32,828 nucleotides of DNA from Synergistaceae bacterium (lineage in GTDB: Bacteria > Synergistota > Synergistia > Synergistales > Aminobacteriaceae): positions 1 through 32,828 of the forward strand of contig JAFSKY010000023.1 of NCBI GenBank assembly GCA_017448685.1, given 5' to 3'. The position numbers were made by a program, and so were the translations under genes. The notes below the pieces were generated by a model, which had not been told where the DNA came from, made no database searches, and worked only from the letters and a program-made list of their open reading frames with translations. Below are positions 1,212 through 27,610 of the stretch, in pieces. Each line of letters opens with the position of its first letter. Within the stretch, counting starts at the first letter, position 1.

Positions 1212-1227
1212 GACAAAATGACCTCCT

Positions 1228-2088: not shown

Positions 2089-2090
2089 CG

Positions 2091-4664: not shown

Positions 4665-4719
4665 TCCGAGAACATTTCCCCTTATGACGTTCTTTTCAAG
4701 GGTAGCTAGGAGGTTGGAT

Positions 4720-5799
4720 ATGAGCTGTGATGTTTCAGTAGTTATCCCTATGTATAACACTGAGAAGTTTATCCGCCAATGCGTTGACAGTGTTCTTGCG
4801 CAAACCTTTCCCAACATCGAAGTAATCATAGTTGATGATTGTTCCCCCGATAACGGAGCGGCCTTATGCGATGAGCTTTACGGCAATAATGACCGTGTAC
4901 GCATAATTCATCATGAGAAAAATTCAGGTGCTGGCACGGCAAGAAACACAGGTACGCTTCATGCGGAAGGCCGTTATGTGTGCTACGTTGACGGCGACGA
5001 CCAAATCATGCCCGGCTTCTTGGGCGATATGTTCAAGGTAGCCACAGAATATGATGTTGATGTAGTGCATAACACTCGCACATTCTCGATAATGCCTAAG
5101 GAAGGCGAGCCACTTCCCCTTGATATGCTTGGACTTCCTGAAGGTAGTCTTTTCTCGTTCAGCCCGGATCATAACGAACTCACCGAGATTACATTGCTGA
5201 CAGATGACCTTGCTTCCCGCCTTGATGACTGGGTCAATCACAGCTATCACTTTTCTGTGTGGAATAGCATGTACAAGAGATCCTTCCTGCGTGAGAATAA
5301 TATTATGTTCGACAAGATGAAACTTGCGGAGGATGCAGTGTTCTATTTTCATTGCATGTTCAGCGCAAAACGTTTCGTAGTGAGGCCGGGCGGGGGCTAT
5401 GTCTACAGGATTGGTGATTCATCGTTGTCCCGTGGCAGTAAATCACCCGAAAAAGCAGTGAAGGCTATGCAAGCTCAGCTTGAGGTAATCGCGGCAATGA
5501 AGCGTATTACGGACAAAATACCATTCTTCAAGGACAGCAGGGTTAATACGAGACGTGCTATAGATATGATACTTCTTAGCCTTGAGGACGGTTTCATCAA
5601 ACCAACGTTTCAGAGTTTAGGCGAGGAAGGCATGAGGAGCGGAGAAAGTGTAAATACATTCTTCGCCGAAAATTTTGGTGAAAATGCTCCGTATGTAGAG
5701 TTTTTGTTCTACGAGCTACATAAGTTATATCCGCCTGTGATTGATTTCGTAGGTGCGAGCAGCGACCCTGATGAATGGAGGAAGCTCAACAAGAAATGA
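4720..5799 (+). CDS. Family-2 glycosyltransferase (GT-A fold), array copy 1
   Basis: A predicted cytoplasmic glycosyltransferase of 359 residues. The start is the ATG at 4720, preceded by AGGAGG at six bases. The frame opens earlier at 4684, but only this start places the conserved strand (CDVSVVIPMYN) at the N-terminus, as in the sister genes. The GT2 marks are the nucleotide-binding VDDCS near residue 36, the NSGAGTARNTG segment, and the metal-binding D91-G-D93-D94. A conserved acidic residue follows in KLAEDAVFY, and a Gly-rich GGGYVYR precedes a helical C-terminal region. That region is shared by all four copies and ends in 'YVEFLFYELHKLYPPVI'. There is no transmembrane segment. Donor and acceptor sugars cannot be read from the sequence. 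Its stop overlaps the next start (ATGA). Confidence 0.92.
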   Translation: MSCDVSVVIPMYNTEKFIRQCVDSVLAQTFPNIEVIIVDDCSPDNGAALCDELYGNNDRVRIIHHEKNSGAGTARNTGTLHAEGRYVCYVDGDDQIMPGFLGDMFKVATEYDVDVVHNTRTFSIMPKEGEPLPLDMLGLPEGSLFSFSPDHNELTEITLLTDDLASRLDDWVNHSYHFSVWNSMYKRSFLRENNIMFDKMKLAEDAVFYFHCMFSAKRFVVRPGGGYVYRIGDSSLSRGSKSPEKAVKAMQAQLEVIAAMKRITDKIPFFKDSRVNTRRAIDMILLSLEDGFIKPTFQSLGEEGMRSGESVNTFFAENFGENAPYVEFLFYELHKLYPPVIDFVGASSDPDEWRKLNKK

Positions 5800-6974
5800 A
5801 CCCAGATATTTCCATAATAATGCCACTGTACAATGCGAAAAAATACCTGAAACTCGCCATTGACAGCATACTCAATCAGACGCACAGAAACATTGAAGTT
5901 GTTGTTGTGGATGACTGCTCCACAGATGGAAGCCTCGAATTATGCCGGGAACTTTACGGCCATGACGAAAGAGTCAGGATACTTCAGCAGCCTCAGAACA
6001 TGGGTCCCGGCGAGGCAAGGAACACAGGTATACGCAATGCACGAGGCAAATACATAGCCTTTGCTGATAGTGATGATGAAATTCTGCCTGATACACTGAG
6101 TAAGCTGTTTGACTTGGCAGAGAAATACAACGCTGATGTCGTCCACAGTACTCACAGCATATTCACTATACCCGATGAGAACGGAGTCATGTCGCTTGAA
6201 ATGCTACCTTCAGGCGCGGACGATGAGAATACTTTGATTGTGCCTGTGCTTATGGATCAGAATGTGCCCAAAGAGATAACGCTTCTTGATGGAGACCGCT
6301 CACAGAGGTTTGAGAACTGGCTCAAGCATAATTACAACTGGGTGCTGTGGACAAAATTATTCCGTCGTTCCTTCTTGGAGAGTCATGCTATATCTTTTGG
6401 CAAGATGAAAATGGCCGAGGACATGATATTTTGCCTTGAATGCCTCATGCAGGCCGAAAATTACCTCATTATGCCTGGCGGAGGGTATATATATCGTTCA
6501 ACGGATTCGCTCTCACGTGGCAGTAAGTCCCCTGACAACACCGTGAAATACCTTCGCGCCCAGCTTCAAATAACCGCCCATATGAAAGCACGCCTTGAAG
6601 GTATAGACTTTTTCCGCAAGACCCCCCAGAAAATCACTACAGCTATTGATTTCGTCTTGTCTGATTTGGAGATGGGATTCATTCGTCCTGCGTATCAATC
6701 GCTAGGAGAAGCGGCCATGAGGAGCGGAAAAGCCTTGAGTGCGTTCTTCACGGAAAATTTCGGGGAACTTACACCGTATGTTGAGTTTCTGTTCTACCAG
6801 TTACATAACGAATATCCAGATGTCATTGATTACATGGGGAAACTGAACAGTAACCCTTCATTCTGGCGGAAGATTCGTGCGAAATTAGTTGCGGCAAAAA
6901 GAGCGGGTGTTGTCATTACCGACATAAGAGAACTGTTTGCTGACGGTGATGTAAGCTCGTTGTTTCAAGGATAA
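5796..6974 (+). CDS. Family-2 glycosyltransferase (GT-A fold), array copy 2
   Basis: A 392-residue paralog of copy 1. The ATG at 5796 overlaps the previous stop as ATGA, and this start aligns the N-terminus with its sisters (MNPDISIIMPLYNAKKYL). The ATG at 5775 is rejected because it would add seven unaligned residues. GT2 marks are VVDDCSTDGS near residue 36, NMGPGEARNTG, the DxD site D91-S-D93-D94, MKMAEDMIF and GGGYIYR. The helical C-terminal region is conserved, and this copy alone has a further extension of about 30 residues after the shared 'FWRKI' end. A soluble cytoplasmic enzyme acting on a glycan or lipid carrier is likely; its substrate is unknown. Confidence 0.92.
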   Translation: MNPDISIIMPLYNAKKYLKLAIDSILNQTHRNIEVVVVDDCSTDGSLELCRELYGHDERVRILQQPQNMGPGEARNTGIRNARGKYIAFADSDDEILPDTLSKLFDLAEKYNADVVHSTHSIFTIPDENGVMSLEMLPSGADDENTLIVPVLMDQNVPKEITLLDGDRSQRFENWLKHNYNWVLWTKLFRRSFLESHAISFGKMKMAEDMIFCLECLMQAENYLIMPGGGYIYRSTDSLSRGSKSPDNTVKYLRAQLQITAHMKARLEGIDFFRKTPQKITTAIDFVLSDLEMGFIRPAYQSLGEAAMRSGKALSAFFTENFGELTPYVEFLFYQLHNEYPDVIDYMGKLNSNPSFWRKIRAKLVAAKRAGVVITDIRELFADGDVSSLFQG

Positions 6975-6996
6975 ATATAGGTGAGGAGGTTTTTGC

Positions 6997-8103
6997 ATGA
7001 AAGCTGACGTTTCAGTTGTAATGCCACTGTACAACGCAAAAGATTACGTGAAACTTGCAGTCGACAGCATATTGAATCAGACTTTAGCAGGGATTGAGCT
7101 GCTCATAGTGGATGATTGCTCCACAGACGGCAGCTTAGAGTTATGTCGTGAGCTTTACGGCCATGACAAAAGGGTACGAATAATCCAGCAGCCCAAAAAT
7201 ATGGGTCCCGGAGCCGCAAGAAATACGGGTATACGTTCAGCAACAGGCGATTACGTTACGTTTGTTGATAGCGATGACGAAATTATGCCGGATGCTATGC
7301 AGAATATGTTTGAGGCAGCCAGAAAATTCAATGCTGATGTCGTACATATCACAAAATTCTCGTATGCGTTGCCTGATGAAGATGGGAAAATGCCGCTTCA
7401 GCTTATCGATGACAGCTTACTTATGTTCCGAAATGACATTGACAGGAATGCTTACACTGAGGTTACGTTGCTGAGCGATGACCTCAATTCAAGGCTTGAG
7501 GACTGGAGGAATAGCCGCCTAAATTGGCATGTTTGCGCAAAAATGATACGGCGTGAATTTCTTGTGGACAATGGCATATTCTTTTCAGACATGAAACTTG
7601 GCGAGGATATGGTGTTCTGCTTTGAATGCCTCTTCAAGTGCAAAAATTATGTCGTTGTGCCTGGAGGCGGGTATGTCTACAGAATGGTAACTTCCTCATT
7701 GTCGCGTGGGAAGAAAACCTCTGCACACGTCATAAAGGCTCTGAAGTCTCAAATCGGTGGAACTATCAACATGAGCAGAATCCTCAAGGAGATACCCTAC
7801 TTTGTTGAGAACCCTGACAAGGCTGTAATTGCGCTCGAAAGAGTCCTTGATGACCTCGAAATAGCATTTATACGGCCAGCATTCCAAGAGCTTGGCGAAG
7901 AGACTCTCCGCTCTGACGGTCTCGTGAGTGAGTTTATGCGCGAAAACTTTGGAGATAATGCGCCGTATGTGGAGTTCCTGTTCTATGAGCTTCACAAGAA
8001 TTACGAGCCTGTTATCGATTACGTTGGGCAACTTGGCGACATAGAAACATGGAAAGCCATAGCAAAACAATTGCGTGAAAAGGAGCAACAGAACAAACAA
8101 TGA
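6997..8103 (+). CDS. Family-2 glycosyltransferase (GT-A fold), array copy 3
   Basis: A 368-residue protein with a strong ribosome site (GAGGAGG, eight bases before the ATG at 6997). It is very close to copies 2 and 4 in its first 100 residues (MKADVSVVMPLYNAKDYVKL, DDCSTDGSLELCRELYG). It has the GT2 DxD site at D91-S-D93-D94, then MKLGEDMVF and GGGYVYR. The common helical C-terminal region contains 'NAPYVEFLFYELHKNYEPV'. It overlaps the next gene by four bases (ATGA), so the two are probably translated in tandem. No membrane segments are present. The substrate is unknown. Confidence 0.92.
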   Translation: MKADVSVVMPLYNAKDYVKLAVDSILNQTLAGIELLIVDDCSTDGSLELCRELYGHDKRVRIIQQPKNMGPGAARNTGIRSATGDYVTFVDSDDEIMPDAMQNMFEAARKFNADVVHITKFSYALPDEDGKMPLQLIDDSLLMFRNDIDRNAYTEVTLLSDDLNSRLEDWRNSRLNWHVCAKMIRREFLVDNGIFFSDMKLGEDMVFCFECLFKCKNYVVVPGGGYVYRMVTSSLSRGKKTSAHVIKALKSQIGGTINMSRILKEIPYFVENPDKAVIALERVLDDLEIAFIRPAFQELGEETLRSDGLVSEFMRENFGDNAPYVEFLFYELHKNYEPVIDYVGQLGDIETWKAIAKQLREKEQQNKQ

Positions 8104-9245
8104 AATTTGACGTTTCAGTAGTTATGCCGCTGTACAATGCAAAAGGTTATCTGAAATTTGCTGTTGACAGTGTGCTTAACCAGACGCTAAAGAATGTGGA
8201 ACTCGTTATCGTTGATGATTGCTCAACAGATGGTAGCCTTGATTTATGCCGTGAGCTTTATGGGAGCAATGAAAGAGTCAGGATATTCCAGCAGCCCCAA
8301 AACGGCGGTCCAGGTGCGGCGCGTAACAGAGGAATCAGCGAGGCTCGCGGGGAATATATAGCCTTCCTCGACAGCGACGACGAAATGATGCCCGATAACC
8401 TCGAACGCATGTTCACAGCCGCAAAAGCACACAATGCCGATGTCCTCCACAACAACCAAATCAGAATGATGCTGCCTATGGATGATGGCTCAATGCCGCT
8501 TGAGTTACTCAGTCAGCCGGATAACATAGTTTTGTTCCAGCTAGACCGTGGGGAAATCGTAACGGAGATACAAGCTCTACCATCGGACTTAAACGAGAGA
8601 ATAGCAAGATGGAAGGAAGGCCGTCTTGTGTGGAGCGTGTGCAACAAGATGATTCGGCGGTCATTGATTGTGGATAATGGTATCGTTTTCCCTGACACAA
8701 CGCTGGCTGAAGATGCTATATTCTGCCTTCAATGCCTACTCACAGCGAAAAACTACGTTATTATGCCGGGAGGATGGTATGTAGTCCGCACTAATGAAAC
8801 GTCGATAACAAGAATATCCAACGAAGTAAGCAGAGTCCTTAAAGCTATTCGGGCGCAATTAGGTGTTGTGAAAACGCTTGCTGCTCTCGCCAAGAAAATA
8901 CCTGTCCTCAATGACAAAGCGAACTTCACCGCAGTAGTGAATACAACCCTGGAGAACATCGAGTATTTTTCTCTGAGGCTCAGTTTCCAGAAAGCAGGCC
9001 AAGAAGCACTGAGAAATGATGAGAATCTTTCATCATTCTTCCGCGAAACATTCGGGGAGCTTTCTCCGTATGTTGAGTTCTTGTTCTTCCAGCTACATGA
9101 AACATATCCCACTATGTCGGAGAAATTCATGGATGACCCTGAAACAATCGGGAAAATCAAGCAGGCCATGAAAGAGGCAAAATCTGCTGGCAAAGAATTT
9201 GTCGTAAGGTCATTTTCAAAAGATAGAGTAAATCATAGCGAGTAA
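8100..9245 (+). CDS. Family-2 glycosyltransferase (GT-A fold), array copy 4
   Basis: A 381-residue protein starting at the ATG at 8100 within the ATGA overlap. Its N-terminal catalytic region matches the sisters (FDVSVVMPLYNAKGYLKF, DDCSTDGSLDLCRELYG, D91-S-D93-D94). The second half is the most divergent of the set. GGGYVYR becomes GGWYVVR, the 'SLSRGSK' element becomes 'SITRISNE', and a basic tail is added at the end (AKSAGKEFVVRSF). It may therefore use a different acceptor. The gene sits three bases before the first ABC exporter gene, which links glycosylation to export. Confidence 0.92.
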   Translation: MKFDVSVVMPLYNAKGYLKFAVDSVLNQTLKNVELVIVDDCSTDGSLDLCRELYGSNERVRIFQQPQNGGPGAARNRGISEARGEYIAFLDSDDEMMPDNLERMFTAAKAHNADVLHNNQIRMMLPMDDGSMPLELLSQPDNIVLFQLDRGEIVTEIQALPSDLNERIARWKEGRLVWSVCNKMIRRSLIVDNGIVFPDTTLAEDAIFCLQCLLTAKNYVIMPGGWYVVRTNETSITRISNEVSRVLKAIRAQLGVVKTLAALAKKIPVLNDKANFTAVVNTTLENIEYFSLRLSFQKAGQEALRNDENLSSFFRETFGELSPYVEFLFFQLHETYPTMSEKFMDDPETIGKIKQAMKEAKSAGKEFVVRSFSKDRVNHSE

Positions 9246-9248
9246 ATT

Positions 9249-10997
9249 ATGAAAACAATCATCAGAAACATCCGCGGCAAGGAGTGGTTTCTTGTCGCGG
9301 GCGCATTGCTTTTCACAGCAGCTCAGGTAAAACTCGAACTCCTTTTCCCCGAATATCTGAAAGACATAACCGCACTCATTCAATCCGCAACAATTGAATC
9401 AGGAAAGCTCTTGACGTTATGCTGGCAAATGTTTGCTTTCGTGGCAGGGGCTTTGATTTGCGCATTGCTCACTGTGTTGTGTGTCGCTATTTCGTCATCA
9501 CACATAACAGCGCGGATAAGGCAGAGCGTGTTCAACAAAATCATGGACTTTTCGCTTGAGGAAGTCGCAAAATTCACTACGCCCAGCCTCATCACTAGAT
9601 GCACATTTGACGTTATGCAGGTTCAAATGTTCATATCTACAGCTCCTGCTATGTTGATACGCTCAATCCTCACTGGAGTCATGGCCACTATTGGCATTTG
9701 GGGCAAACATATTATATGGACATCAATAACAGGTGGCACTGTAGCGTTAATGCTTGCGCTTCTCTCACTCTTAATCCTGTTCCTTACGCCCGCAACAATG
9801 AGAGTGAACAAGCTGACTGACCGTTTGAACAAAATCAGCCTTGAACATTTGACCGGCCTCAGAGTGATTCACGCATACAACGCACAAGATTACCAGCAGG
9901 AGAAATTTGACAGCGTGAATAATTCCCTCGCTGACACAAATATTTACATCAATAACAGGATGGCTCTTATGTACCCGATAATAACCCTATTCACAAGCCT
10001 AACTACCCTGTTAATATATTTCTCTGGCGTATTCATTCTGCGTTCATCAGAAGCCTCGCACAAGCTACATACGTTCTCCAACATGATAGCCTCAGCAACA
10101 TATGCAAGTCAGGCAATTATGGCGTTCTTAATGCTAGTATTCCTGATGATGATGTTACCGAGAATGATTGCCTCATTGAGACGCATCAGCGAAGTACTCA
10201 ACGAGAACATAAAGATTCAGGATGGCGGCGGCGTTATAGTCAGTGGCAACGACACAGGCAAAGTTGAGTTCCGCAATGTGTCATTCAGATACCCAGGAGC
10301 GGTAAACGATGCTTTGAGCGGTATAACCTTCACCGTTAATCCCGGACAAACTGCGGCTATCATAGGCTCTACAGGTTCGGGAAAAACCTCAATACTGAAC
10401 CTCATACCCAGACTGTATGATGTCTCAGGAGGCGAGGTATTTGTTGACGGCTTCAACGTGAGAGACTTCAAGCTGAATGACCTCCGCGAACGTCTCGGCT
10501 ATGTCCCACAAAAAGCTATTCTCTTCTCCATGAGCATAGCTGATAATATCGGATACGGCGACAACTCACGCTTCAAGCCCACGCTCGAAAATATCAAGGA
10601 GGCTGCTGAAGTTGGGCAGGCAAGTGAATTTATCGAGCAACAAGAAGCTGGATATGATACGGAAGTCCAGCAGGGAGGCAAGAATTTTTCCGGCGGGCAG
10701 AAACAACGCCTCACCATATCACGCGCAATCAGCCGTAATCCTGAGATATATATCTTTGACGACTCATTCTCCGCACTCGACTTCAAGACCGACAAAATAC
10801 TACGCGCAAAACTCCGTGAGACTGCTGGCAACGCAACAATCATAATCGTAGCCCAGAGGATAAGCACAATCAGGAATGCCGACAAAATCATAGTGCTTGA
10901 CAAAGGTCGCATAGCCGGAACAGGAACGCATGAAGAGCTTATGTCCTCATGCCAAATCTACAGAGAAATGGCTGAATCGCAGTCAATTAGCCAGTGA
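9249..10997 (+). CDS. ABC exporter half-transporter with degenerate ATP site (heterodimer subunit A)
   Basis: A 582-residue type IV ABC exporter subunit, with an N-terminal six-helix membrane domain (residues 1-320) and a nucleotide-binding domain (about 335-582). Walker A is GSTGSGKTS (373-381) and the signature is the canonical SGGQ (from S481). Walker B ends in D504, but the catalytic Glu is replaced by Asp505 (IFDDSFSALD). The switch His is replaced by Gln536 (VAQRIS). These changes mark the non-hydrolysing site of asymmetric exporters such as the TM287/288 or BmrCD types. It starts three bases after the last glycosyltransferase and 13 bases before its partner. Likely cargo is a glycolipid or peptide, but this is inferred from position only. 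Confidence 0.93.
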   Translation: MKTIIRNIRGKEWFLVAGALLFTAAQVKLELLFPEYLKDITALIQSATIESGKLLTLCWQMFAFVAGALICALLTVLCVAISSSHITARIRQSVFNKIMDFSLEEVAKFTTPSLITRCTFDVMQVQMFISTAPAMLIRSILTGVMATIGIWGKHIIWTSITGGTVALMLALLSLLILFLTPATMRVNKLTDRLNKISLEHLTGLRVIHAYNAQDYQQEKFDSVNNSLADTNIYINNRMALMYPIITLFTSLTTLLIYFSGVFILRSSEASHKLHTFSNMIASATYASQAIMAFLMLVFLMMMLPRMIASLRRISEVLNENIKIQDGGGVIVSGNDTGKVEFRNVSFRYPGAVNDALSGITFTVNPGQTAAIIGSTGSGKTSILNLIPRLYDVSGGEVFVDGFNVRDFKLNDLRERLGYVPQKAILFSMSIADNIGYGDNSRFKPTLENIKEAAEVGQASEFIEQQEAGYDTEVQQGGKNFSGGQKQRLTISRAISRNPEIYIFDDSFSALDFKTDKILRAKLRETAGNATIIIVAQRISTIRNADKIIVLDKGRIAGTGTHEELMSSCQIYREMAESQSISQ

Positions 10998-11010
10998 GGA
11001 GCGGTAAACA

Positions 11011-12759
11011 ATGCTTTCAACATTCAAGTTAATCAGGCGCATATCAGTTTATGTGAAGAAATACCGCTCTAAGTTAGTGTTAGCTTTCCTGTTCTCGATG
11101 ATAGGGGCATTGATGAATATGGTTGTCCCTGACATCATACGCCGCATCACTGACACAATCGCCGCCGGGCTAAATTCGTCAATAGATGCATCTGCTGTAA
11201 TTCGGTATTCGTTCATCGCTTTGTTCATGATGGCGGGAGGCTTTGTGTGCATATTCCTCCAAAACGCTTTACTGCCACTCGTCTCACAGCTTATGAGCCG
11301 TGATATTCGCAACGACATGAACAGGAAAATTGACAGAATACCACTCTCATATTTTGACGTTAGGCCGAACGGTGATACATTGAGCCGCGTTACTACTGAC
11401 GTTGACATGTTCGCAAATGCCGTTACGAACAACATAAGCGGCATAATCTCGTCAATCGTTACGATAATAGGTATATCGCTGGTGATGTTCTCCATAAACG
11501 TCATACTTACGTTTACTCTTATGGCATTGAGCATAGTTTTCTTCATGTTCAACACATTCTTGATGAAGAAGAGTCAGCCATATTTCCATTCACAGCAACA
11601 TCTTCTAGGAGCGGTGAACGCAAAAGCAGAGGAAGCTATATCAGGCCACCTCATAATCAAGTCCTTTGGGGGTGAGCAAGAAACAAGGCAGAGTTTCTCC
11701 GAGAGCAACAACAAATTAGCCCAAGACGCATGGCACTCTCAATTCATTTCAGGAATGATGATGCCAATAATGAACGTGGGAGGGCAATTCTCTAATGTCG
11801 CTGTTGTCCTTGCTGGAGCTTTTCTCATGCTTCATCACCATAGCGGCATAACCATTGGAATGATTGTTGCGTTCGTGTCATATTCACGTATATTCGCATC
11901 AATGCTGACAAACTTATCACAGTGTATCTCCTCGCTTCAACCAGCAATTGCCGCAACTAACAGAATACTTGAGCTTATGGACGTTGAAGAAATGACAGAG
12001 GCCAATACCCCCAAGACTTTGGACAAAGTGAAAGGGCATATCACGTTCTCTGATGTCAAATTCGGATATGTGAAGGACAAAATCATAATTCATGATTTCT
12101 CGGCGGACGTAAAAGCGGGAAGCAAGATTGCCATTGTCGGCCCTACAGGTGCGGGAAAAAGCACGGTCATAAATCTTCTGATGAGGTTCTATGAGCTTAA
12201 CGGAGGGAAAATTCTCATTGATGGCGTTTCAATCGCTGACATGGCCAGGAATAACCTTCATGAGTTCATCGGGCTTGTTCCTCAAGATATATGGACGTTT
12301 GAAGGCTCAATTAGGGATAACATAGTGTACTCGACTGAAGGCATATCAGACAATAAGCTGAATGATGTGCTTGAAGCGTCAGGGTTGGTGTATTTCGTGA
12401 GTGCTATGCCTGAGGGAGTTGATACGGTCATCAATGAGCAATCGAACCTCTCAACAGGTCAACGCCAGCTCATCACTATAGCGAGGGCAATGGTGAAAGA
12501 TCCTCCCGTTTTGATACTTGACGAGGCAACATCATCTGTTGACACAAGAACGGAAAAACTCATACAGGCTGCACTCGATAAGCTCATGGCCGGAAGAACA
12601 TCTTTCATCATAGCTCATAGGCTGTCGACGATTCAGAATGCAGATTTGATTCTCGTCATGAAGGATGGCGACATTGTAGAGACTGGGAAACATGATGAGC
12701 TACTCGCCTTGAATGGAGTTTACGCTGATATTTACCGCAGCCAGTTTGACACAAAGTAA
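11011..12759 (+). CDS. ABC exporter half-transporter with catalytic ATP site (heterodimer subunit B)
   Basis: A 582-residue partner of the preceding gene, with the same six-helix membrane domain plus nucleotide-binding domain. Walker A is GPTGAGKST (377-385), Walker B is complete (ILDEATSSVD, D504-E505) and the switch His536 is present (IAHRLS). The signature motif is altered to LSTGQ (S481-T482-G483), where SGGQ is usual. In a heterodimer the altered signature pairs with the degenerate Walker B and switch of the partner. Its intact Walker B pairs with the partner's canonical signature, giving one working ATP site. The gene is last in the operon and faces a bidirectional hairpin. Confidence 0.93.
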   Translation: MLSTFKLIRRISVYVKKYRSKLVLAFLFSMIGALMNMVVPDIIRRITDTIAAGLNSSIDASAVIRYSFIALFMMAGGFVCIFLQNALLPLVSQLMSRDIRNDMNRKIDRIPLSYFDVRPNGDTLSRVTTDVDMFANAVTNNISGIISSIVTIIGISLVMFSINVILTFTLMALSIVFFMFNTFLMKKSQPYFHSQQHLLGAVNAKAEEAISGHLIIKSFGGEQETRQSFSESNNKLAQDAWHSQFISGMMMPIMNVGGQFSNVAVVLAGAFLMLHHHSGITIGMIVAFVSYSRIFASMLTNLSQCISSLQPAIAATNRILELMDVEEMTEANTPKTLDKVKGHITFSDVKFGYVKDKIIIHDFSADVKAGSKIAIVGPTGAGKSTVINLLMRFYELNGGKILIDGVSIADMARNNLHEFIGLVPQDIWTFEGSIRDNIVYSTEGISDNKLNDVLEASGLVYFVSAMPEGVDTVINEQSNLSTGQRQLITIARAMVKDPPVLILDEATSSVDTRTEKLIQAALDKLMAGRTSFIIAHRLSTIQNADLILVMKDGDIVETGKHDELLALNGVYADIYRSQFDTK

Positions 12760-18564: not shown

Positions 18565-18650
18565 GTAACTAACTCCCTCATTCAATGTTTCAAATTTTGT
18601 CTGAGCTTCCTCATTCTATTTTTATGAAGGTGGAAGGTTGACAGTGAAAA

Positions 18651-18679
18651 ATTATACTATGAGGGATTTCATATCCTAA
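18651..18679 (-). promoter_or_regulatory. Promoter of the efflux operon
   Basis: On the minus strand a perfect TATAAT (18656 down to 18651) lies 17 bases after TTAGGA (18679 down to 18674; three of six to TTGACA). The predicted start near 18644 gives a leader of about 80 bases before the adaptor ATG. The 180-base divergent region between the two operons is the place to look for a shared operator; I saw no clear palindrome in it. Confidence 0.45.
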
Positions 18680-18703
18680 AATTTCGCCGAATAATATGGA
18701 GTG

Positions 18704-18709
18704 TATAAT
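18704..18709 (+). promoter_or_regulatory. -10 element of the four-gene acyl/glycosyl operon
   Basis: A perfect TATAAT in the context GTGTATAATATT. The expected start near 18716 gives a leader of about 29 bases to the ATG at 18745. The -35 region (about 18681-18687) is poor, so the promoter may need an activator. Confidence 0.4.
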
Positions 18710-18744
18710 ATTGTCTCAATTCCACAACCATTAAGGAGCATCGT

Positions 18745-20241
18745 ATGATAAAAACAGAAAGCGGTTATGTCTGTGGCCTCAAAACTAATGATGAAGCCGT
18801 ATCAATCTTCAAAGGTATACCATTCGCCGCGCCCCCAATAGGCCAAATGAGATGGAATGCCCCCACAAAATCGCCCTCATGGCCGGGAGTACGTGAATGC
18901 ACAAAGTTCTCTCCAAGCGCAATACAATCCCCACAAGCCCCCTTCCTTATGTGGTCAGAAGAGTTCATCATAGATACATCAACCGGATATTCTGAGGACT
19001 GCCTAACGTTGAATGTGTATTGCCCCTCAGACGTAAATGTGAAGGATAAGCCTGTAGTAATATACTTTCATGGAGGTAGCTTCGTTGCTGGCGGAAGCTC
19101 ATGCGAAATCTACAACGGTGAACAGTTAGCCCGGCATGGAGTGATTTTCGTTACGGCAAATTTCCGCGTTGGTGTGCTTGGACTCCTCGCAAGCTCTAAG
19201 CTGTCATGCGAAAACTCAAGCAAAATTTCCGGGAACTACCAACTACTCGACCAAATAGCCGCGCTGAAATGGGTAAGGGATAACATAAAGGCATTCGGTG
19301 GAAATCCTGAGAACGTTACCATAATGGGACAATCATCGGGTGCAGCTGCTGTATGTACGCTAGCGGTGTCGCCAATGGCAAAAGGACTATTCCGGCGAGT
19401 TTTCGCGATGAGCCATGAAACACTGAATATGCCAGTAGCCACGACATCAGATGCATCAGGCAAGATGATAATGGTAGACATCTACAAGCCGTTATCAGAA
19501 TGCGAACGTGAAGGCGATGAAGTTATCGGTATGGTGGTTGAGGATATGCGCACAATGACCACTGAAGAGCTACTGAAACTGCCAGCGTATTACCCATATT
19601 GCATAGACGGCCATGTATTGACATGCCCATTCAATGATGGAGTGAGGGCAGGCATGACGGATGAATACGACTTCATGGTAACGTATACGGCAAATGACAG
19701 TATGCTGTTTATGATAATGAGGGATTTAGCGGCGAAAAACCCTACAACTACGGAGGATTACGAAGCGGCTATGCGTGGTTACTTCGGTGAACATGCTGAT
19801 ATGGCAATGAAGCTATACCCGTTCAACGGCAATCCGAAACAGTTTGTGTCCATGATTTCGCATGAGAGATACACAGCAAGCGTGATGATGCTGGCCTCAT
19901 TGAGGAAGGGTGCAAAAACTTGGATAGCGCAATTTGACCACGTAATGCCCGGGCCTGAATCACATATTTGGGGAGCGTTCCACACGTCTGATGTGCCGTA
20001 TTGGCTTGATTACTTCTCCGATAAGCGTAAAGATCTCTGGCGTGAAGAGGATTACAGTCTAGGCGCGGAATTGGTAGCGAGGCTTGCGGCATATGCCAAA
20101 ACGGGAAGCCCTAATGCGGAGGGTTTAAGCGATTGGAAGCCTAATAGCCTCTACAGGATACAGGCGGGGAATATCCATGAAGCACAGTTGCTTACACAGG
20201 AGAAATACGACTTTTGGAGGGAAGTATATTGCGTGAATTAG
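18745..20241 (+). CDS. Type-B carboxylesterase, cytosolic
   Basis: A serine esterase of 498 residues, normal length for the type-B carboxylesterase family. The start has a good ribosome site (AAGGAG, six bases before the ATG). Family marks are FKGIPFAAPPIGQMRW, SEDCLTLNVYCP, the oxyanion segment FHGGSF, NYQLLDQIAALKWVRDNI, and the nucleophile elbow GQSSG with Ser197. His413 (GAFHTSDVPYW) is the likely base. The acid position, usually Glu, appears to be Asp318 (TANDS). No signal peptide is present, so it acts in the cytoplasm, unlike many secreted relatives. It may hydrolyse or transfer an ester made by the enzymes that follow. It overlaps the next gene by 13 bases and is the first gene of the operon. 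Confidence 0.92.
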   Translation: MIKTESGYVCGLKTNDEAVSIFKGIPFAAPPIGQMRWNAPTKSPSWPGVRECTKFSPSAIQSPQAPFLMWSEEFIIDTSTGYSEDCLTLNVYCPSDVNVKDKPVVIYFHGGSFVAGGSSCEIYNGEQLARHGVIFVTANFRVGVLGLLASSKLSCENSSKISGNYQLLDQIAALKWVRDNIKAFGGNPENVTIMGQSSGAAAVCTLAVSPMAKGLFRRVFAMSHETLNMPVATTSDASGKMIMVDIYKPLSECEREGDEVIGMVVEDMRTMTTEELLKLPAYYPYCIDGHVLTCPFNDGVRAGMTDEYDFMVTYTANDSMLFMIMRDLAAKNPTTTEDYEAAMRGYFGEHADMAMKLYPFNGNPKQFVSMISHERYTASVMMLASLRKGAKTWIAQFDHVMPGPESHIWGAFHTSDVPYWLDYFSDKRKDLWREEDYSLGAELVARLAAYAKTGSPNAEGLSDWKPNSLYRIQAGNIHEAQLLTQEKYDFWREVYCVN

Positions 20242-21533
20242 GCGTATCAGATAAGTATTTCTACTACACGGCGGCGGGTAAAGGTTCAACAATGGATATA
20301 CGTTTGCCCATAACATTCAAAGCTCCCGTAAACCATGAGGCTCTAATATTGGCGACAAGTGAGGCTTTGAGGTTGTACCCAGAGTTTTCAGCGCGTCCAG
20401 TGTTGCATGAGGGCAGATTGTTCTATGAGGATAATCACGAGGATGTAGCGTTATTGCCGTTATCATCGCGGTATGATTTCGGCAGTGATGACATGAACGG
20501 GTATTTGTTCTGCTTCCAGTATGACGCGTTAAAGGAGCGTGAAGTAGTATTTTCGGTGTATCATGCGTTATCCGACTGGAACGGTCTCAGCAGGTTTTTG
20601 AAGGCGATAATTTGCCGTTATGCCGTCCACGTGAAGGGATTGCGGGATGATTATTTTGGTGATGTAATACGTTCCCATGAGCCTAGTAGAGATGAATGGG
20701 AGACGCAAAGCAACCTTAATCCCTATGAGGTATACGGCGATGAAAGAGCGATACCCAGCTACAAGCCCGAAATTACGGGGGAAATCTTCACGGTATCCGA
20801 AGAGTATTACGGAGTAAATTTCCCAGCGAGTCGGCATATCAGGATAACGCTCAGCACAAGTGAGTTCATCAAGGCCGCTAAGAGTAATAACACTAGCTTT
20901 GTGCCATTGATGTTATACGTTTCATCGAGTTCAATGCGTGATGCCTACAATACCGACAAGACTATACTGTCAATGTTTCCTGTTGACCTGCGAAAAGTCT
21001 TCAACAATGATTGCATCGTAAATTTCTCTGATGCGACATTTCTACCGTCAACGATTGAGCAACATAACATGCCGATAGAGGAGCAATGCAAGAGATTTCG
21101 CGAGATGCTAACCTTATCGAGGAAGCCAGAGAATTACGCCAAATTTCTGTATGACAAAGTGGAGACGGTGAAGGGATTTGAGGCATTTCCAGGTGGGATA
21201 ATAGCGAAGAGTCGCGAGAATAGCTTACGCACTGGAGGGAGGTTAACGCGAGTAACGCAAGGAGTAACGTATCCTGGGATTATGGACATGCCAGAAGGAG
21301 CAGATGACCTCATCGAAGATATAGTGATGGAGTCGCCGTTTGGAGTACCATTAATGCTGGTAACGACCTACCACGATACAATGAGTATAACGTCAATACA
21401 GCGTTACGAGGGTAATTGCTTGGAGAAGGCTATATGTCGCAAACTGAGTTCATTGGGGCTTGAAACGGAAATTGCCTATAATGGGCTTGTTGAACAGAAC
21501 GTAATGAATCTGGAAAGATTGAGGAGCGTGTAA
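20229..21533 (+). CDS. Condensation/acetyltransferase-like acyltransferase (CAT superfamily)
   Basis: About 434 residues from a TTG at 20229, chosen because GGAGGG lies seven bases upstream; the ATG at 20214 has no such site. The fold is suggested by the N-terminal strand and helix pattern of chloramphenicol-acetyltransferase-like enzymes (DIRLPITFKAPVNHEALILA, then LYPEFSARP). The motif YHALSDWNG supports it: His112 and Asp116 fit the HxxxD catalytic signature, although the usual final Gly is Trp here. Later segments such as 'ILSMFPVDLRKVF' fit the 'N.R..' region of the family. It would transfer an acyl group to a hydroxyl or amine. The partner acyl donor is probably made by the ligase encoded two bases downstream. 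There is no carrier protein in the operon, so the donor may be a CoA thioester. Confidence 0.75.
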   Translation: MRELGVSDKYFYYTAAGKGSTMDIRLPITFKAPVNHEALILATSEALRLYPEFSARPVLHEGRLFYEDNHEDVALLPLSSRYDFGSDDMNGYLFCFQYDALKEREVVFSVYHALSDWNGLSRFLKAIICRYAVHVKGLRDDYFGDVIRSHEPSRDEWETQSNLNPYEVYGDERAIPSYKPEITGEIFTVSEEYYGVNFPASRHIRITLSTSEFIKAAKSNNTSFVPLMLYVSSSSMRDAYNTDKTILSMFPVDLRKVFNNDCIVNFSDATFLPSTIEQHNMPIEEQCKRFREMLTLSRKPENYAKFLYDKVETVKGFEAFPGGIIAKSRENSLRTGGRLTRVTQGVTYPGIMDMPEGADDLIEDIVMESPFGVPLMLVTTYHDTMSITSIQRYEGNCLEKAICRKLSSLGLETEIAYNGLVEQNVMNLERLRSV

Positions 21534-21535
21534 AG

Positions 21536-23524
21536 GTGGATTTCACAGAGCAGAAATACTACGACATACTACAGGAGCAGGCGAGTAAGCATCCTGATAA
21601 ACCTGCTGTAGTGATGGGCGAAAAGTGCCTGACATATTCCGAATTTGTCGGGAAAATCGATAACGTCTCGTCATTCCTCGTTGAACATGGCGTAAACAGT
21701 GGCGACCGTGTTGTGTTATGGTCAAGCCCTTGTCCTGAATGGCTGTATGTCTATTACGGTATAGTGCATGTAGGAGCGGTAGCGGTATGTCTGAACTCAA
21801 ACTACACTGTTGATGACGTAACGCCACTTGTAACGTTTGCAGATAGCAAGTACGCACTTTACGGCACGACCCATGACACGAAGGGAGTAGCGAGTGAGGC
21901 TAAAACGTTGTCGCAATCATTCGGGCTTCCAGAGGATAGCGTATTCTCCATATTCGAGACTGATTTTGCCTCTGTGGCAGTGAGTGAGATAACCGACACG
22001 CGTGATGTACACGATGATGCGTATATCATATACACGTCAGGGACAACGGCATTCCCGAAAGCAGTATTGACCTCGCAATATTCGATGATAAACACCTCGC
22101 TGAAATTTGCGGATGAGTTCAAATCGATACGCGGGGATAAGGCATGTGTAGCCCTGCCATTATTCCATGCATTTGGACTGAGTGTACCATGCGTGTATTT
22201 GTTCTTGGGCGGAACAGTGTACATACCCGAAAAGGTGAAGGCGCAAGACATAGCGGACATAGTGAACCGTGAACACATCACCGATTTATGGTCAGTAGCG
22301 GCGGTATATCAGAGCATAATTGACAGCAAGGAGTACACGGACAAATGCGCGCCATTCATCAAAGTGTGCAGTATAGCAGGAAGTTACACCAGCCCGATGC
22401 AGTTCACGCGATTTGAGGCGGCATTAAATCATGCAACATTCCTGAACATGTTTGGAATGACGGAGACGGCAACGGTATTCATCATGGCACGTCCCGAAGA
22501 CAGTATACAGGTACGTTACAACACGATAGGGCGTAAGATACCTGACGTAGAGATAGGTATATGTGATGCAGAGCGAGGAATGCTACCAGCGGGTGAAGTT
22601 GGCGAATTGGTAACGCGAGGTTTCCACATCAAGAACGGTTACTACAAGCTACCCCCAGAGAAGCAATCAGTAGACGCAGACGGCTGGTTTCACACGGGCG
22701 ATTTGGGAGTAATGGATGATGACGGCAATGTGCGTATAATGGGACGCATCAAGGATATAATCATCAAGGGTGGGGAAAACATCACGCCCAGTGAAATCGA
22801 AGCGGAAGCCCTGAACGATTCCAGCATCAAGGAATGCCGAATATTTGGTTACAAGGATAGGTTATACGGAGAAAATCTCGGAGCGTGTGTAATTCTTCAG
22901 CCAGGAGCAACATTTGATGAGGCGACAACGCGCAAGCATCTACGTGATAAACTCGGCTCATTCAAAGTGCCAGCATATTTCTTCCTTTATGACAAATTCC
23001 CTCTGAATGCCACGGGGAAGGTTGACCAGCGTACACTTCATGTAGATATGCTGAAGCGTTTGCGTAAGATGGAGCTTGATGGCGAACTCGAAAAGGGAGT
23101 AAGTGTGCTAGATGTCGGCATAAAGAACACGTCCTACGCGATAATACCGTTGGTGTCAATGGTGGAGAATTACGCGCTAGCATTCGGTTTCAAGCCCAAG
23201 CAGGCGGGGCGAATACGTCTAGCGTGTGAGGAGATGTTGACGGAACGTATCTTGAATGCGTTTGAGGACGTTGGCGACATATATCTTCACTGCACATGCT
23301 TCAGGACATTCATGCGAGTAACATTCGAGGATAGCGGGCAGGTGTACGATTTCGACAAGCAGCGCAAGAAGAGTGAGAGTGCGAAGATAATTGCGTTTGT
23401 AGCTGATGACATGTCGATAACGAAGAAGCACGACTCTAACATGACCTCCTACAATTTGGATTTCATATACAGCAGTGATTTTGATGTAACGGAATTTCTC
23501 GCCTCACATGAGCGATTAATGTGA
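21536..23524 (+). CDS. Acyl-CoA ligase/adenylating enzyme fused to an RsbW-like HATPase domain
   Basis: A 662-residue protein starting at GTG 21536 after GAGGAG (nine bases). Residues 1-515 are a complete ANL adenylating enzyme. They contain YTSGTTAFPKAV (from Y166), GMTETATVF (from G307), GWFHTGDLG (D389), the hinge GRIKDIIIKGGENI, and the catalytic Lys495 in NATGKVDQ. It should activate a carboxylic acid with ATP and probably load CoA. Residues 522-662 form an unexpected extra domain resembling serine-kinase anti-sigma factors of the RsbW type: RIRLACEEMLTER (559-571), strands, then FEDSGQVYDF in the position of the G1 box. The N-box Asn is replaced (E570) and the GxGL loop is absent. ATP binding by this domain is therefore uncertain, and it may be a regulatory or partner-binding module. 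Confidence 0.88.
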   Translation: MDFTEQKYYDILQEQASKHPDKPAVVMGEKCLTYSEFVGKIDNVSSFLVEHGVNSGDRVVLWSSPCPEWLYVYYGIVHVGAVAVCLNSNYTVDDVTPLVTFADSKYALYGTTHDTKGVASEAKTLSQSFGLPEDSVFSIFETDFASVAVSEITDTRDVHDDAYIIYTSGTTAFPKAVLTSQYSMINTSLKFADEFKSIRGDKACVALPLFHAFGLSVPCVYLFLGGTVYIPEKVKAQDIADIVNREHITDLWSVAAVYQSIIDSKEYTDKCAPFIKVCSIAGSYTSPMQFTRFEAALNHATFLNMFGMTETATVFIMARPEDSIQVRYNTIGRKIPDVEIGICDAERGMLPAGEVGELVTRGFHIKNGYYKLPPEKQSVDADGWFHTGDLGVMDDDGNVRIMGRIKDIIIKGGENITPSEIEAEALNDSSIKECRIFGYKDRLYGENLGACVILQPGATFDEATTRKHLRDKLGSFKVPAYFFLYDKFPLNATGKVDQRTLHVDMLKRLRKMELDGELEKGVSVLDVGIKNTSYAIIPLVSMVENYALAFGFKPKQAGRIRLACEEMLTERILNAFEDVGDIYLHCTCFRTFMRVTFEDSGQVYDFDKQRKKSESAKIIAFVADDMSITKKHDSNMTSYNLDFIYSSDFDVTEFLASHERLM

Positions 23525-23543
23525 TATTGGGAGGTGAAAAGAG

Positions 23544-26159
23544 TTGAAGAAGTATGAGATTTCAGTAATCACGCCCCTTCACAATGTCCCATTGGATATG
23601 TTCAAGGCGAGTTTTCAGTCAATGCAGGCGCAGACACTCGGCTTTGAGAATGTAGAATGGGTAGTAGTGGTGCATAACTCAACGGAGGAATACGAGCGTG
23701 ATGTACAGGAGCTATTGAGCGGTCATGACAACGTAGTAGTAGACATCCTTCACAATGCCAATCATACGCCATCAAGCCCACGTAACAGGGGACTAGATAT
23801 AGCCAGCGGAGAATATATCGGATTTCTTGACGGTGATGATAGGTACACGCCCGACTGTTTGAAGGTAGCCTTGCGCCACATAAAGCGTTCTGGAGCTGAT
23901 GTGTGTATGTTTCGGCGTGAGGTGGAATTGGAGTACGATTCACCGTTTGTGCCGAATGAGGTAGTGTTATGGGACCAGACGCGTGAGGAAATTATCGTAA
24001 ATCGCGACACATGGGACGACAAAAAGATATTCTGTTCGCTGTGGGGATTGGTAACACATCGTCTATTCAAGGCGAGTTATCTACGTGACAAAGGAATACG
24101 CTTTGACGAGTCAATAGACTGTGCGGAAGATTATGTGTTCATGATGGAAGCGTTATGGAAGGCAGAAAAAGTATGTCTACTGCCTCAGCTGATAGGGTAT
24201 GTATATTACGTGAACAGTGCATCAATTCTGCAAAGTTCAGCGAGCAAGGGAGAAGGAGTAATTCTAGCGACAGCACGTAGCTTCAAGAGGGTGCTAGATT
24301 ACTGCCTGAATTACGGAATAGACCTGAACGCCTTAATGCACGCGTTTTTGAGGATAGTGGCAGGTTTCATGCTGACGAACAAGGATATATCAGAGGGGGT
24401 GCGTAAGGAGATATTTGAGCTAATGATGCCTTACGCGAAGATGATAACGCCGATCCCGCCGACAAAGGTATATAGTCCGAAGTATCTTGAGGATTTAAAC
24501 AACCTGCCGAAATATTTTCTTACGGGTGAAGTAGAGGAAAGATTTATCGGGGAAGGGTTATTATGGTATGACGAGCGTACAGTGCCTGAGACAGTGCTAG
24601 AGTTCCAGAAGCGGACGCTATACAGTGTGCTAGAGAACGGCTGCAAATCGGATTACGGGCAACGCTACAAGTTTTCCCAAATCGGGACATTAGAGGGTTA
24701 TCGTACGCGACTACCAATGACGAGCTACGACACGTACCAGCCAATGATAAACCTAGCGACCCGCATCAACGAGGCATATATTTTCACGGACGAGGACATA
24801 ACGTCCTACACGCTATCATATGGGCGAGTGGGAGTACCGAAGAGGCTACCTATAACGCGTAAACATCTAGCGCCATACCTGAAAGAGATGGAGCGGCTAT
24901 TAGGTGGGAAGAAAGTATTTGTGATGTGTGAGAGCCTGCCATACCGTAACCCAGTACGCAATCTCGATAAAGCCTACACGAATACGCTAACGGGTCTTTT
25001 ACTCTCAGAGTTTTACGGTGAGAATATGCGAGTAAGTCTTTCACGCAAGAGGGCAGAAATCACGACGCCATTTGAGTTATTATTTCCCGATGAGGTTATG
25101 GATTTTGAGTACCCTCGTTTATTTTTTGCGCTTCGAGAGAAGGACATAACCGCCATATATGCGCCTAACGCGAGTATATTCCTGAGCAACATACAACGCC
25201 TCGCAAAGGATTGGGAGCAACTTTGCGATGACATAGAAGCGGGAAGTATAAGTGTGCTGAGGAAATTTCCAGAGGACATGCGCAAGAGGCTGAACAATCG
25301 AATAGCGCCTAACCCAGCGCGTGCAAAGGAGCTGAGGCGGATATTCTCAGGCATTAAGGACGGGAATATTCTGAAGCTGGTCAAAGATATATGGCCCTCA
25401 CTTGTTGAAGTTATAGCAGATGGCACAGGGAGCTACACGATATACGCGGACATAATCCGAGATAACATGAGGCATGTGAAATTCAGCAATGATTTTCTGG
25501 CCACAGAAGAGGGGTTTATTGCGCGTGCAGTTCCCAATACGGATATGTACGAGTTAGCACTAACAGCGAACTTTTACGAGTTCATGCCGTTATCGGAGCA
25601 AGGTAAGACGTTAATGGCACATGAGCTAAAGGTTGGTGGAGAATATCGTGTTATAGTGTCAGGGTATTCAGGGCTGTACAGGTATACAACAAATGTGCTA
25701 GTGCGTTGTGAGGAAATCACCGACTGTGCAGTAACAATCAGCAAGCTCTGTCCTCGTGACTATGACATTGACGCGATGGAAGGCATCACAGAAGAGGCTG
25801 TATACCGAGCTGTTCAAATGTTTTCCAGAAGAACGGATATACAGGTAGCTGATTACGTATTCATATATGATGATGAGAGTGAAAGCTACAGCCTAGTACT
25901 TGAGCCAGCAGAATTTGGTGATAATTTCAGCAAAGCCGCTGGAATGTCTCAGGCAGTGAGGGATGAAATAGCCGATGAAAGCGCCAAGATATTGGGAACA
26001 TCGCGACCACTCAGAATACTCTTCAATGAGCCAGGGACACATGCCCTTTACACGGAAGCGACACAATACCGCCGGAATATTCTTGAGGATGCAGTGAGGC
26101 CATGCCATATGACGGACAACGCATTGGAGAGCAAATTCTTCCAGAAGCTGACGGTGTAA
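23544..26159 (+). CDS. Family-2 glycosyltransferase fused to a GH3-like acyl-acid amido synthetase domain
   Basis: An 871-residue protein with a TTG start at 23544, supported by GGGAGGT eight bases upstream. Residues 1-270 are a GT2 domain: YEISVITPLHNVPLDMF, NHTPSSPRNRGLD, the metal site D96-G-D98-D99, and CAEDYVFMMEALW. Residues from about 350 to 865 resemble the GH3 family, whose members adenylate a carboxylic acid and join it to an amino acid. They include LENGCKSDYGQRYKFSQIGT, RLPMTSYDTYQPMI, LFFALREKDITAIYAPNAS, FYEFMPLSEQ and KVGGEYRVIVSGYSGLYRY. Two ATP-site motifs are altered: the usual 'SSGTTG'-like loop reads LSYGRVG (424-430), and 'YR.GD' reads YTTNV. The domain could be inactive or use another cofactor. 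It is the last gene before a terminator. Confidence 0.85.
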   Translation: MKKYEISVITPLHNVPLDMFKASFQSMQAQTLGFENVEWVVVVHNSTEEYERDVQELLSGHDNVVVDILHNANHTPSSPRNRGLDIASGEYIGFLDGDDRYTPDCLKVALRHIKRSGADVCMFRREVELEYDSPFVPNEVVLWDQTREEIIVNRDTWDDKKIFCSLWGLVTHRLFKASYLRDKGIRFDESIDCAEDYVFMMEALWKAEKVCLLPQLIGYVYYVNSASILQSSASKGEGVILATARSFKRVLDYCLNYGIDLNALMHAFLRIVAGFMLTNKDISEGVRKEIFELMMPYAKMITPIPPTKVYSPKYLEDLNNLPKYFLTGEVEERFIGEGLLWYDERTVPETVLEFQKRTLYSVLENGCKSDYGQRYKFSQIGTLEGYRTRLPMTSYDTYQPMINLATRINEAYIFTDEDITSYTLSYGRVGVPKRLPITRKHLAPYLKEMERLLGGKKVFVMCESLPYRNPVRNLDKAYTNTLTGLLLSEFYGENMRVSLSRKRAEITTPFELLFPDEVMDFEYPRLFFALREKDITAIYAPNASIFLSNIQRLAKDWEQLCDDIEAGSISVLRKFPEDMRKRLNNRIAPNPARAKELRRIFSGIKDGNILKLVKDIWPSLVEVIADGTGSYTIYADIIRDNMRHVKFSNDFLATEEGFIARAVPNTDMYELALTANFYEFMPLSEQGKTLMAHELKVGGEYRVIVSGYSGLYRYTTNVLVRCEEITDCAVTISKLCPRDYDIDAMEGITEEAVYRAVQMFSRRTDIQVADYVFIYDDESESYSLVLEPAEFGDNFSKAAGMSQAVRDEIADESAKILGTSRPLRILFNEPGTHALYTEATQYRRNILEDAVRPCHMTDNALESKFFQKLTV

Positions 26160-26191
26160 ACGTAATTCAGCAATAATCCAGCAATACAAAT

Positions 26192-26234
26192 TCCCGCTAC
26201 TTATGGCTAATGCTGTGAGAGCGGGAGTTTTTTT
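26192..26234 (+). terminator. Terminator of the four-gene acyl/glycosyl operon
   Basis: A seven-pair perfect stem, TCCCGCT (26192-26198) with AGCGGGA (26220-26226), carries a 21-base loop and is followed by seven T residues (26228-26234). It begins 33 bases after the stop of the fusion gene. Confidence 0.8.
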
Positions 26235-26265
26235 GTGCGTATAATAATCGTTCAGCCTCACATAG

Positions 26266-26274
26266 TGCTATAAT
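26266..26274 (+). promoter_or_regulatory. Extended -10 promoter of the antiporter gene
   Basis: The sequence is TGCTATAAT, that is TG, one base, then a perfect TATAAT. The start would be near 26281, giving a leader of about 40 bases. A second TATAAT at 26240-26245 directly follows the upstream terminator T run and could be an alternative. Confidence 0.5.
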
Positions 26275-26320
26275 TCCGCGCTTGAACACATAAATACGGA
26301 AAGAGGCACAATATTTTCAC

Positions 26321-27610
26321 ATGTCATTACTTCTCAGCACATCATTTGCGCTATTCGCCGGGCTTCTCATGACGAGGGCATTCAAGTACACAGTCGGGCG
26401 TAAAGGCATAATGTTTCCTGACGTAACAGCCTTCCTCATAGCAGGGGTTATTGTCGGGCCATACGTATTGGGGCGTTACGGGCTTGGCTTCGATTCACAG
26501 TCATCACTTGCGGACGTTGGAATAATCTCAAACGTAGCTTTAGGGTTCATAGCGTTCGACATTGGTAGCGAGTTCAGAGCCGCAAGCCTCAAGGAAATGG
26601 GAAAATCCGCGCTCTTCATCGGAATATTTCAGGCAGTCGCGGCAACAGTCCTCGTTGATATTGCCCTAGTAGCTTTGAGCGTGAATCTTGGCGGTCATGT
26701 TCTACCACTTCCAGCAGCAATAACGTTAGGGGCTATAGCATCCGCAACAGCTCCAGCAGCTACGTTGATGGTGGTACGTCAATTCAAGGCAAAAGGTCCA
26801 GTAACGGACTTGCTACTTCCAATTGTCGCACTTGATGACGCAGCCGGACTAGTGATATTCGCCGTCTCAATGGGAATTTCACAGGCCATGATAGGCGGGG
26901 CAATAAACCTCGTGTCAATCGTCATCAATCCCATCATAGAGATTACATGCTCAGTGATTCTCGGCGCGCTGATGGGATATGTTCTGACCATGCTGGAAAA
27001 GATATTCTTCTCCAACTCAAACAGGCTCTCACTCACAATAGCTTTCGTTATGATGACAATATCACTTGCCTCACGCGAAATATACATAGGCTCAGTGCGT
27101 ATAGCGTTCTCGTCATTACTGGTGTGCATGACATTAGGGACAGTGTTCTGCAACATGTGCGAATATTCCAGTGATATTATGGCGCGTTCACAGAAATGGT
27201 CAGCCCCGCTTTACGCAGTATTCTTCGTGATTTCGGGCGCGAGGCTGGAATTGTCGGTAATGGGAAGCGTGTCAGTTATGGTAGTTGGAGCTGTGTATAT
27301 GCTGGTGAGGTGTGCAGGAAAATATTACGGAGCGCGAATAAGCTCATCAATCATGGGATGCTCTGAGAACGTGAAGAAATATCTTGGGATAACACTTTTC
27401 CCGCAAGCCGGAGTTGCTCTCGGAATGGTAGTGAGTGCGCAGAGTCTCGGCGGTGAAATCGGAGGCTTGATACGCAATATCATACTGTTTAGCGTGTTGG
27501 TGTATGAGCTAGTTGGGCCTGTGCTTACGAGAATTGCATTGACTGACGCGGGCGAAATTGAGCAGAAGAAGCCTGAACATATCAACCGTGCGAGGTTTCA
27601 GAAAGCATAA
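26321..27610 (+). CDS. CPA2-family cation/proton antiporter
   Basis: A 429-residue integral membrane protein with about twelve hydrophobic segments and no C-terminal TrkA domain. Family marks are the N-terminal FLIAGVIVGPYVLG, then the TAPAATLMVV segment. The paired acidic motif ALDDAAG (D172-D173) matches the ion-binding Asp pair of electrogenic Na+/H+ antiporters. 'NVALGFIAFDIGSEF' fits the third helix of Kef/Nap-type proteins. It probably exchanges Na+ or K+ for protons at the inner membrane. The start is not strongly supported: AGAGG lies far from the ATG at 26321, and a downstream Met (residue 18) is an alternative. It appears monocistronic, with its own promoter and terminator. Confidence 0.88.
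   Translation: MSLLLSTSFALFAGLLMTRAFKYTVGRKGIMFPDVTAFLIAGVIVGPYVLGRYGLGFDSQSSLADVGIISNVALGFIAFDIGSEFRAASLKEMGKSALFIGIFQAVAATVLVDIALVALSVNLGGHVLPLPAAITLGAIASATAPAATLMVVRQFKAKGPVTDLLLPIVALDDAAGLVIFAVSMGISQAMIGGAINLVSIVINPIIEITCSVILGALMGYVLTMLEKIFFSNSNRLSLTIAFVMMTISLASREIYIGSVRIAFSSLLVCMTLGTVFCNMCEYSSDIMARSQKWSAPLYAVFFVISGARLELSVMGSVSVMVVGAVYMLVRCAGKYYGARISSSIMGCSENVKKYLGITLFPQAGVALGMVVSAQSLGGEIGGLIRNIILFSVLVYELVGPVLTRIALTDAGEIEQKKPEHINRARFQKA

Follow-up and report, generated by a model that had tools for sequence, protein, structure and literature searches.

The locus and the fused protein

The window, by which we mean the whole stretch of 32,828 nucleotides that was analysed, corresponds to the complete contig C244 in a 2.4 Mb MAG of a Synergistaceae bacterium. 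It carries a gene in which a GT2 glycosyltransferase domain is joined to a GH3 domain, a type of enzyme that elsewhere joins acids to amino acids (Table 1). A good ribosome-binding site (GGGAGGTGAAAAGAG) lies just 5' of the TTG start of this ORF, and its orthologues have Met at the equivalent position; the nearest ones were found in the congeners G030 and G009, with whole-protein identities of 67% and 68%, respectively.

The presence of both domains in one chain, as proposed in the preliminary description, was confirmed by Pfam, PDB profiles, AlphaFold and Foldseek. The Pfam scan matched Glycos_transf_2 to residues 7-135 (4.8e-18), GH3 to 351-645 (1.8e-38) and GH3_M to 671-725 (3.1e-11), with no match to the GH3_C model. 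When a profile of the family was compared with the PDB, ten plant GH3 sequences were matched at positions 332-842 with E values down to 7.5e-73, the matches covering most of the length of the plant proteins, and TarS, TarP and RmlT were matched over about residues 4-272. The AlphaFold model was confident (mean pLDDT 86, pTM 0.83) and displayed two domains connected by a disordered linker (residues 326-346); in a Foldseek search with this model GH3 structures ranked first (6avh, TMt 0.78, rmsd 3.4), followed by RmlT, TarP and TarS, the matches to the GH3 half being GH3.15, GH3.5 and JAR1. Residues 350-865 match the GH3 family by both profile and structure. An assembly or frameshift artefact was ruled out, since the fusion recurs as ORFs of 851-892 aa in more than 20 genomes belonging to three families.

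Table 1. Position and supporting evidence of the features described in the window.
Feature	Position	Strand	Basis
Four tandem GT2 glycosyltransferases, likely same cluster	4684..9245	+	
Two MsbA-like ABC exporter half-transporters, likely same cluster	9249..12759	+	
Type-B carboxylesterase, GQSSG	18745..20241	+	Pfam, motif
Acyltransferase, PapA5 / condensation-domain fold, HxxxD (H117, D121)	20214..21533	+	model and fold search
AMP-forming acyl ligase, core motifs YTSGTT, GMTETA, HTGD, ATGK; weak HATPase_c_2-like C-terminal domain	21536..23524	+	Pfam, motif inspection
GT2-GH3 fusion, 871 aa	23544..26159	+	TTG start; Pfam, AlphaFold, Foldseek
GT2 (GT-A) catalytic domain, residues about 7-239 (about 1-240)	23562..24260	+	Pfam PF00535 7-135; PDB profile TarS, TarP, RmlT; Foldseek
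LDGDD (95-99), DxD metal and nucleotide-sugar site, intact	23826..23840	+	aligned to TarS D91/D93/D94
AEDYVF (194-199), E195 and putative catalytic base D196, intact	24123..24140	+	aligned to TarS E177/D178 and RmlT ED
GH3 (acyl-adenylate) fold, residues about 350-871	24591..26156	+	Pfam PF03321, PF23571; profile; AlphaFold; Foldseek
Degenerate GH3 motif 1, LSYGRVGVPK (424-433); S101 to Y426, S104 to R428	24813..24842	+	alignment
Degenerate GH3 motif 2, FLATEEGF (651-658); Y330 to L652, S333 to E655, E334 = E656	25494..25517	+	alignment
Degenerate GH3 motif 3, GLYRYTTNV (710-718); D405 to V718, R400 = R713	25671..25697	+	alignment

The order esterase, acyltransferase, ligase and fusion is retained in two further loci (L031 and L032), while in the Lachnospiraceae loci L180 and L182 an esterase, an acyltransferase, a degenerate fusion, GT2 genes and an ABC exporter pair are again found together. 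In Selenomonadaceae the fusion is often located beside an acyltransferase, a MATE-HATPase protein and a STAS-APH protein. The acyltransferase of the window resembles PapA5-type acyltransferases and the condensation domains of NRPS in its fold and its HxxxD motif but has no Pfam match; matches of its profile to a viral fusion glycoprotein in the PDB were due to chance, the chain being a repeat-bearing one, and were superseded by the fold search. No RNA element was detected in an Rfam scan of positions 18000-27000.

Domains of the STAS/HATPase (SpoIIA-like) type, fused to enzymes or exporters, were also observed near these clusters as STAS-AMP-ligase, STAS-APH, MATE-HATPase and AMP-ligase-HATPase proteins (L032:19287-21146, L034:4631-7599, L182:5363-6529 and the ligase of the window), and may represent docking or regulatory pairs; in the HATPase-like tail of the window ligase the Asn typical of the N-box is apparently absent. 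Nothing relevant to clusters linked to STAS/HATPase in this way was found in the open-access literature. At the other end of the window (351-3889, minus strand) there are four tandem paralogous solute-binding proteins of the amino-acid type whose two lobes are seemingly in swapped order; in the one encoded at 2091-3011, the end of the profile is found at residues 125-148, ahead of its beginning at residues 180-244, an arrangement that resembles a circular permutation.

Active-site residues of the two halves

The GT2 half of the fusion shares the GT-A fold and the aligned DxD and ED catalytic residues of RmlT, TarS and TarP, which differ from it in being teichoic-acid enzymes devoid of a GH3 domain. 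Mutants of TarS provided the set of residues used to score this site: R75A, D91A, D93A, D94A and E177A abolish activity and D178N severely reduces it (PMC5156392), the counterparts in the fusion being R80, D96, D98, D99, E195 and D196. All six are retained in the window protein, including the D96-G-D98-D99 stretch that had been described as an intact DxD site; E195 and D196 also align with the ED of RmlT, an enzyme for which the structure of a D198A variant has been solved (8bz8). The fusion does not have the Arg of the YR motif (similar to TarS R206), in contrast to the other GT2s of the window, and the position is occupied by Tyr or Phe in the GT2-GH3 fusions, with Leu in L148. This absence would count against a working GT2; however, RmlT also seems to lack this Arg in the alignment, so its loss is not decisive against GT2 function. 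Judging by these residues, the GT2 of the window protein probably works as a glycosyltransferase.

A different picture was obtained for the GH3 half, whose nucleotide motifs were compared with the defining ones of the family (PMC12493201), using the residue numbering of JAR1/AtGH3.11. Motif 1 of AtGH3.11 reads S100-S-G-T-S-Q-G-R-P-K109, and in OlsH, a bacterial GH3 that makes N-acyl ornithine, the S115A change (S101 in AtGH3.11) leaves no activity while S293A leaves the enzyme active (PMC12493201). In the window protein all three motifs are altered, as they are in its orthologues (Table 1), a point that had escaped the preliminary description. In motif 2 (YGSSE in the reference, LATEE here) the Tyr and the second Ser are gone and the Glu is retained, and in motif 3 (GLYRYRLGD in the reference) the terminal Asp, present in all 71 scorable standalone or otherwise fused GH3s, is replaced by Val. 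The GH3 half has lost residues needed for adenylation, although the equivalents of E334 and K109 persist, so weak nucleotide binding is possible.

Among the NCBIfam families, the GH3 part matches best that of the lyso-ornithine lipid synthetase OlsH (NF052613; PMC12493201), a protein with which it shares the bacterial GH3 fold; OlsH is a standalone protein that keeps the Ser of motif 1, whereas the window protein is fused and has lost it. Membership in this family was ruled out by a score of 42.6 bits against a curated cut-off of 620. The plant acyl acid amido synthetases (JAR1/AtGH3.11, GH3.12 and GH3.15) share the fold across about 500 residues with 16-19% identity, the window protein being distinguished by its altered nucleotide motifs and the extra N-terminal GT2; conjugation of the plant-hormone type was ruled out as its job by the loss of the motifs.

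Distribution of the fused family and selection on its GH3 half

In total, 32 scorable GT2-GH3 fusions were found in gut members of the Synergistaceae, Selenomonadaceae and Lachnospiraceae, the architecture being present in about 17 Selenomonadaceae genomes and several Lachnospiraceae. GH3 domains are rare in the phylum of the host, with scores above the cut-off in 13 of 188 Synergistota genomes, and the genome of the window has no GH3 other than that of the fusion. In a tree built on the GH3 columns, from which the three nucleotide motifs were omitted, the fusions formed one clade with a support of 100/100; the GT2-GH3 fusion had one common origin. The placement of the long-branch members L136, L180_8, L130 and L042 is unsure, and the claims concerning the window do not depend on them. 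Horizontal transfer is suggested by the nesting of two Synergistaceae members (L037 and L039) within clades of Selenomonadaceae. In the open-access literature we found no previous account of a GT2 joined to a GH3.

When the GH3 site was scored by S101, G102, E334 and D405 (a set settled once the motifs had been inspected for the first time, the motifs and the essential Ser being themselves derived from the literature), all four residues were kept in 70 of 73 standalone or otherwise fused GH3s compared with 11 of the 32 fusions; one of the three exceptions among the former is truncated and the other two are distant Synergistota GH3s having Gly at S101. The activity states of the fusions, which are residue-based predictions for sequences mostly taken from MAGs, fell into several groups. 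The largest (18, the window protein included) keeps the full GT2 set and has lost the GH3 set, while seven keep both active sites. Four members (L033, L035, L036 and L041) have an intact GH3 set with the ED of GT2 changed to EG, two from the same clade (L146 and L151) combine EG with a single GH3 change, and one fusion is cut by a contig edge. Parsimony required at least six changes of the GH3 state and one of the GT2 state. Since the seven fusions with both sites include Lachnospiraceae lying outside the rest (L130 and L177_3) as well as a Selenomonadaceae clade, an ancestor with two activities would be the simpler reading.

Other gene arrangements were seen in the course of this comparison. 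Fusions of the EG clade, with their mostly intact GH3, adjoin a PLP enzyme similar to diaminopropionate ammonia-lyase (L171:5995-7380 and L035:1881-3068; 443.7 bits, cut-off 276), a possible clue to the amino-acid substrate. Beside Selenomonadaceae fusions we observed an apparently secreted, unannotated protein of ~205 aa containing a D-I-D/D-D stretch (L162:6779-7393, L163:8029-8658 and L169:6884-7588), with no Pfam match in the one copy scanned. A second type of GH3 fusion, in which a RimK-like ATP-grasp ligase is joined to a GH3 with intact motifs (L142:2876-5419, minus strand; L178:9145-11709, plus strand), has as neighbours a standalone GH3, an additional RimK-like ligase and an ABC pair. 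In Eubacterium oxidoreducens the gene that follows a standalone GH3 codes for an amide hydrolase of the choloylglycine-hydrolase/AAT type (L044:9661-10812).

In the comparison of the window protein with its orthologue in G030, the GH3 half was the more conserved one, with 74% identity against 58% for GT2 and Nei-Gojobori dN/dS ratios of 0.09 and 0.19, respectively; the ratios are rough, given a dS of 1.6-1.8 that is near saturation, but the contrast between the two halves of a single gene is informative in spite of the high dS. A degenerate Selenomonadaceae pair (L038 and L040) had values of 0.15 for GH3 and 0.10 for GT2. Purifying selection acts on the degenerate GH3 domain, which is not decaying and thus probably has a job. 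Decayed copies of the fusion do occur (G016, G193, G268 and G335). In the near orthologue of G009 (L004, contig C14) an in-frame TAA follows at about residue 776, and about 95 residues are thereby missing from the C terminus; either the GH3 end may matter less and less in that relative, or the stop may be an assembly error.

Possible roles of the GH3 half

Both folds, the intact GT2 set, the loss of the GH3 adenylation residues, the single origin of the fusion and the purifying selection lead us to consider it fairly probable that the window protein acts as a GT2 glycosyltransferase and that its other half is a pseudo-GH3 put to a new use. The fusion would have begun as a protein with two activities, sugar transfer and ATP-dependent formation of an acyl amide, the ATP-dependent half having died in the lineage of the window. 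The pseudo-GH3 could have been retained for binding the acyl or the acceptor part of the substrate, or for positioning the GT2 with partner enzymes. The GT2 of the fusion would add a sugar to a glycoconjugate intermediate, a carboxylic acid would be activated by the neighbouring AMP-forming ligase and its acyl group transferred by the PapA5-like acyltransferase; the product, in whose assembly the four GT2s would also take part before its export through the ABC pair, would probably be an acylated glycoconjugate.

In the preliminary description a single protein was suggested to attach both a sugar and an amino acid to one substrate; the amino acid would then be joined through ATP-dependent adenylation. 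Sugar transfer by the window protein is plausible with its GT2 set intact, but the addition of an amino acid finds no support here: the equivalent of OlsH S115 is Tyr, the Asp of motif 3 is Val, motif 1 also has an Arg, and no other GH3 able to supply the activity was found in the genome, which is about 90% complete. Thus, in spite of the presence of both domains, of the seven relatives with both active sites and of the precedent of OlsH, we regard this reading as very unlikely for the window protein; as judged from their residues, it would still be a good hypothesis for those seven relatives. It is also conceivable that the GH3 lost its first half-reaction only, and uses an acyl-AMP or acyl-CoA made by the adjacent ligase to acylate an amine or a sugar hydroxyl. 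Such a role would agree with the strong constraint on the domain and with the AMP-forming ligase, core motifs intact, that directly precedes the fusion in the window and also in L031 and L032, but the operon already has an acyltransferase able to do this step, degenerate Selenomonadaceae relatives have no ligase nearby, and we know of no description of a GH3 site transferring external acyl-AMP; we therefore find it unlikely.

If instead the GH3 were a useless remnant being lost, retained only through its fusion to a working GT2, the repeated loss of adenylation residues on the tree, the decayed copies and the in-frame stop in G009 would be accounted for. This seems quite improbable to us, as the GH3 is the more strongly constrained half of the window protein and full-length ORFs are maintained across deep divergence. 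Beyond the pseudo-GH3 reading of the window protein, we tentatively propose, with more doubt than confidence, that a single ancient fusion created a true two-activity enzyme in gut bacteria, combining glycosyl transfer and ATP-dependent acyl-amide formation; both sites would survive in a few Selenomonadaceae and Lachnospiraceae, with reciprocal loss elsewhere (one clade with a dead GT2 and a live GH3, and repeated cases of the opposite), and the dead GH3 in the lineage of the window would have become indispensable to its GT2 as a module for binding or docking.

Functions have been assigned to bacterial GH3 enzymes only recently (OlsH, 2025; PMC12493201). The fused family constitutes a natural experiment, in which close relatives have both sites, only that of GH3 or only that of GT2, making it testable whether the two reactions share one substrate and how an adenylating fold persists after the loss of ATP. 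Moreover, the fusion marks an uncharacterised gene cluster of gut bacteria, apparently spread horizontally, that probably makes an exported acylated glycoconjugate.
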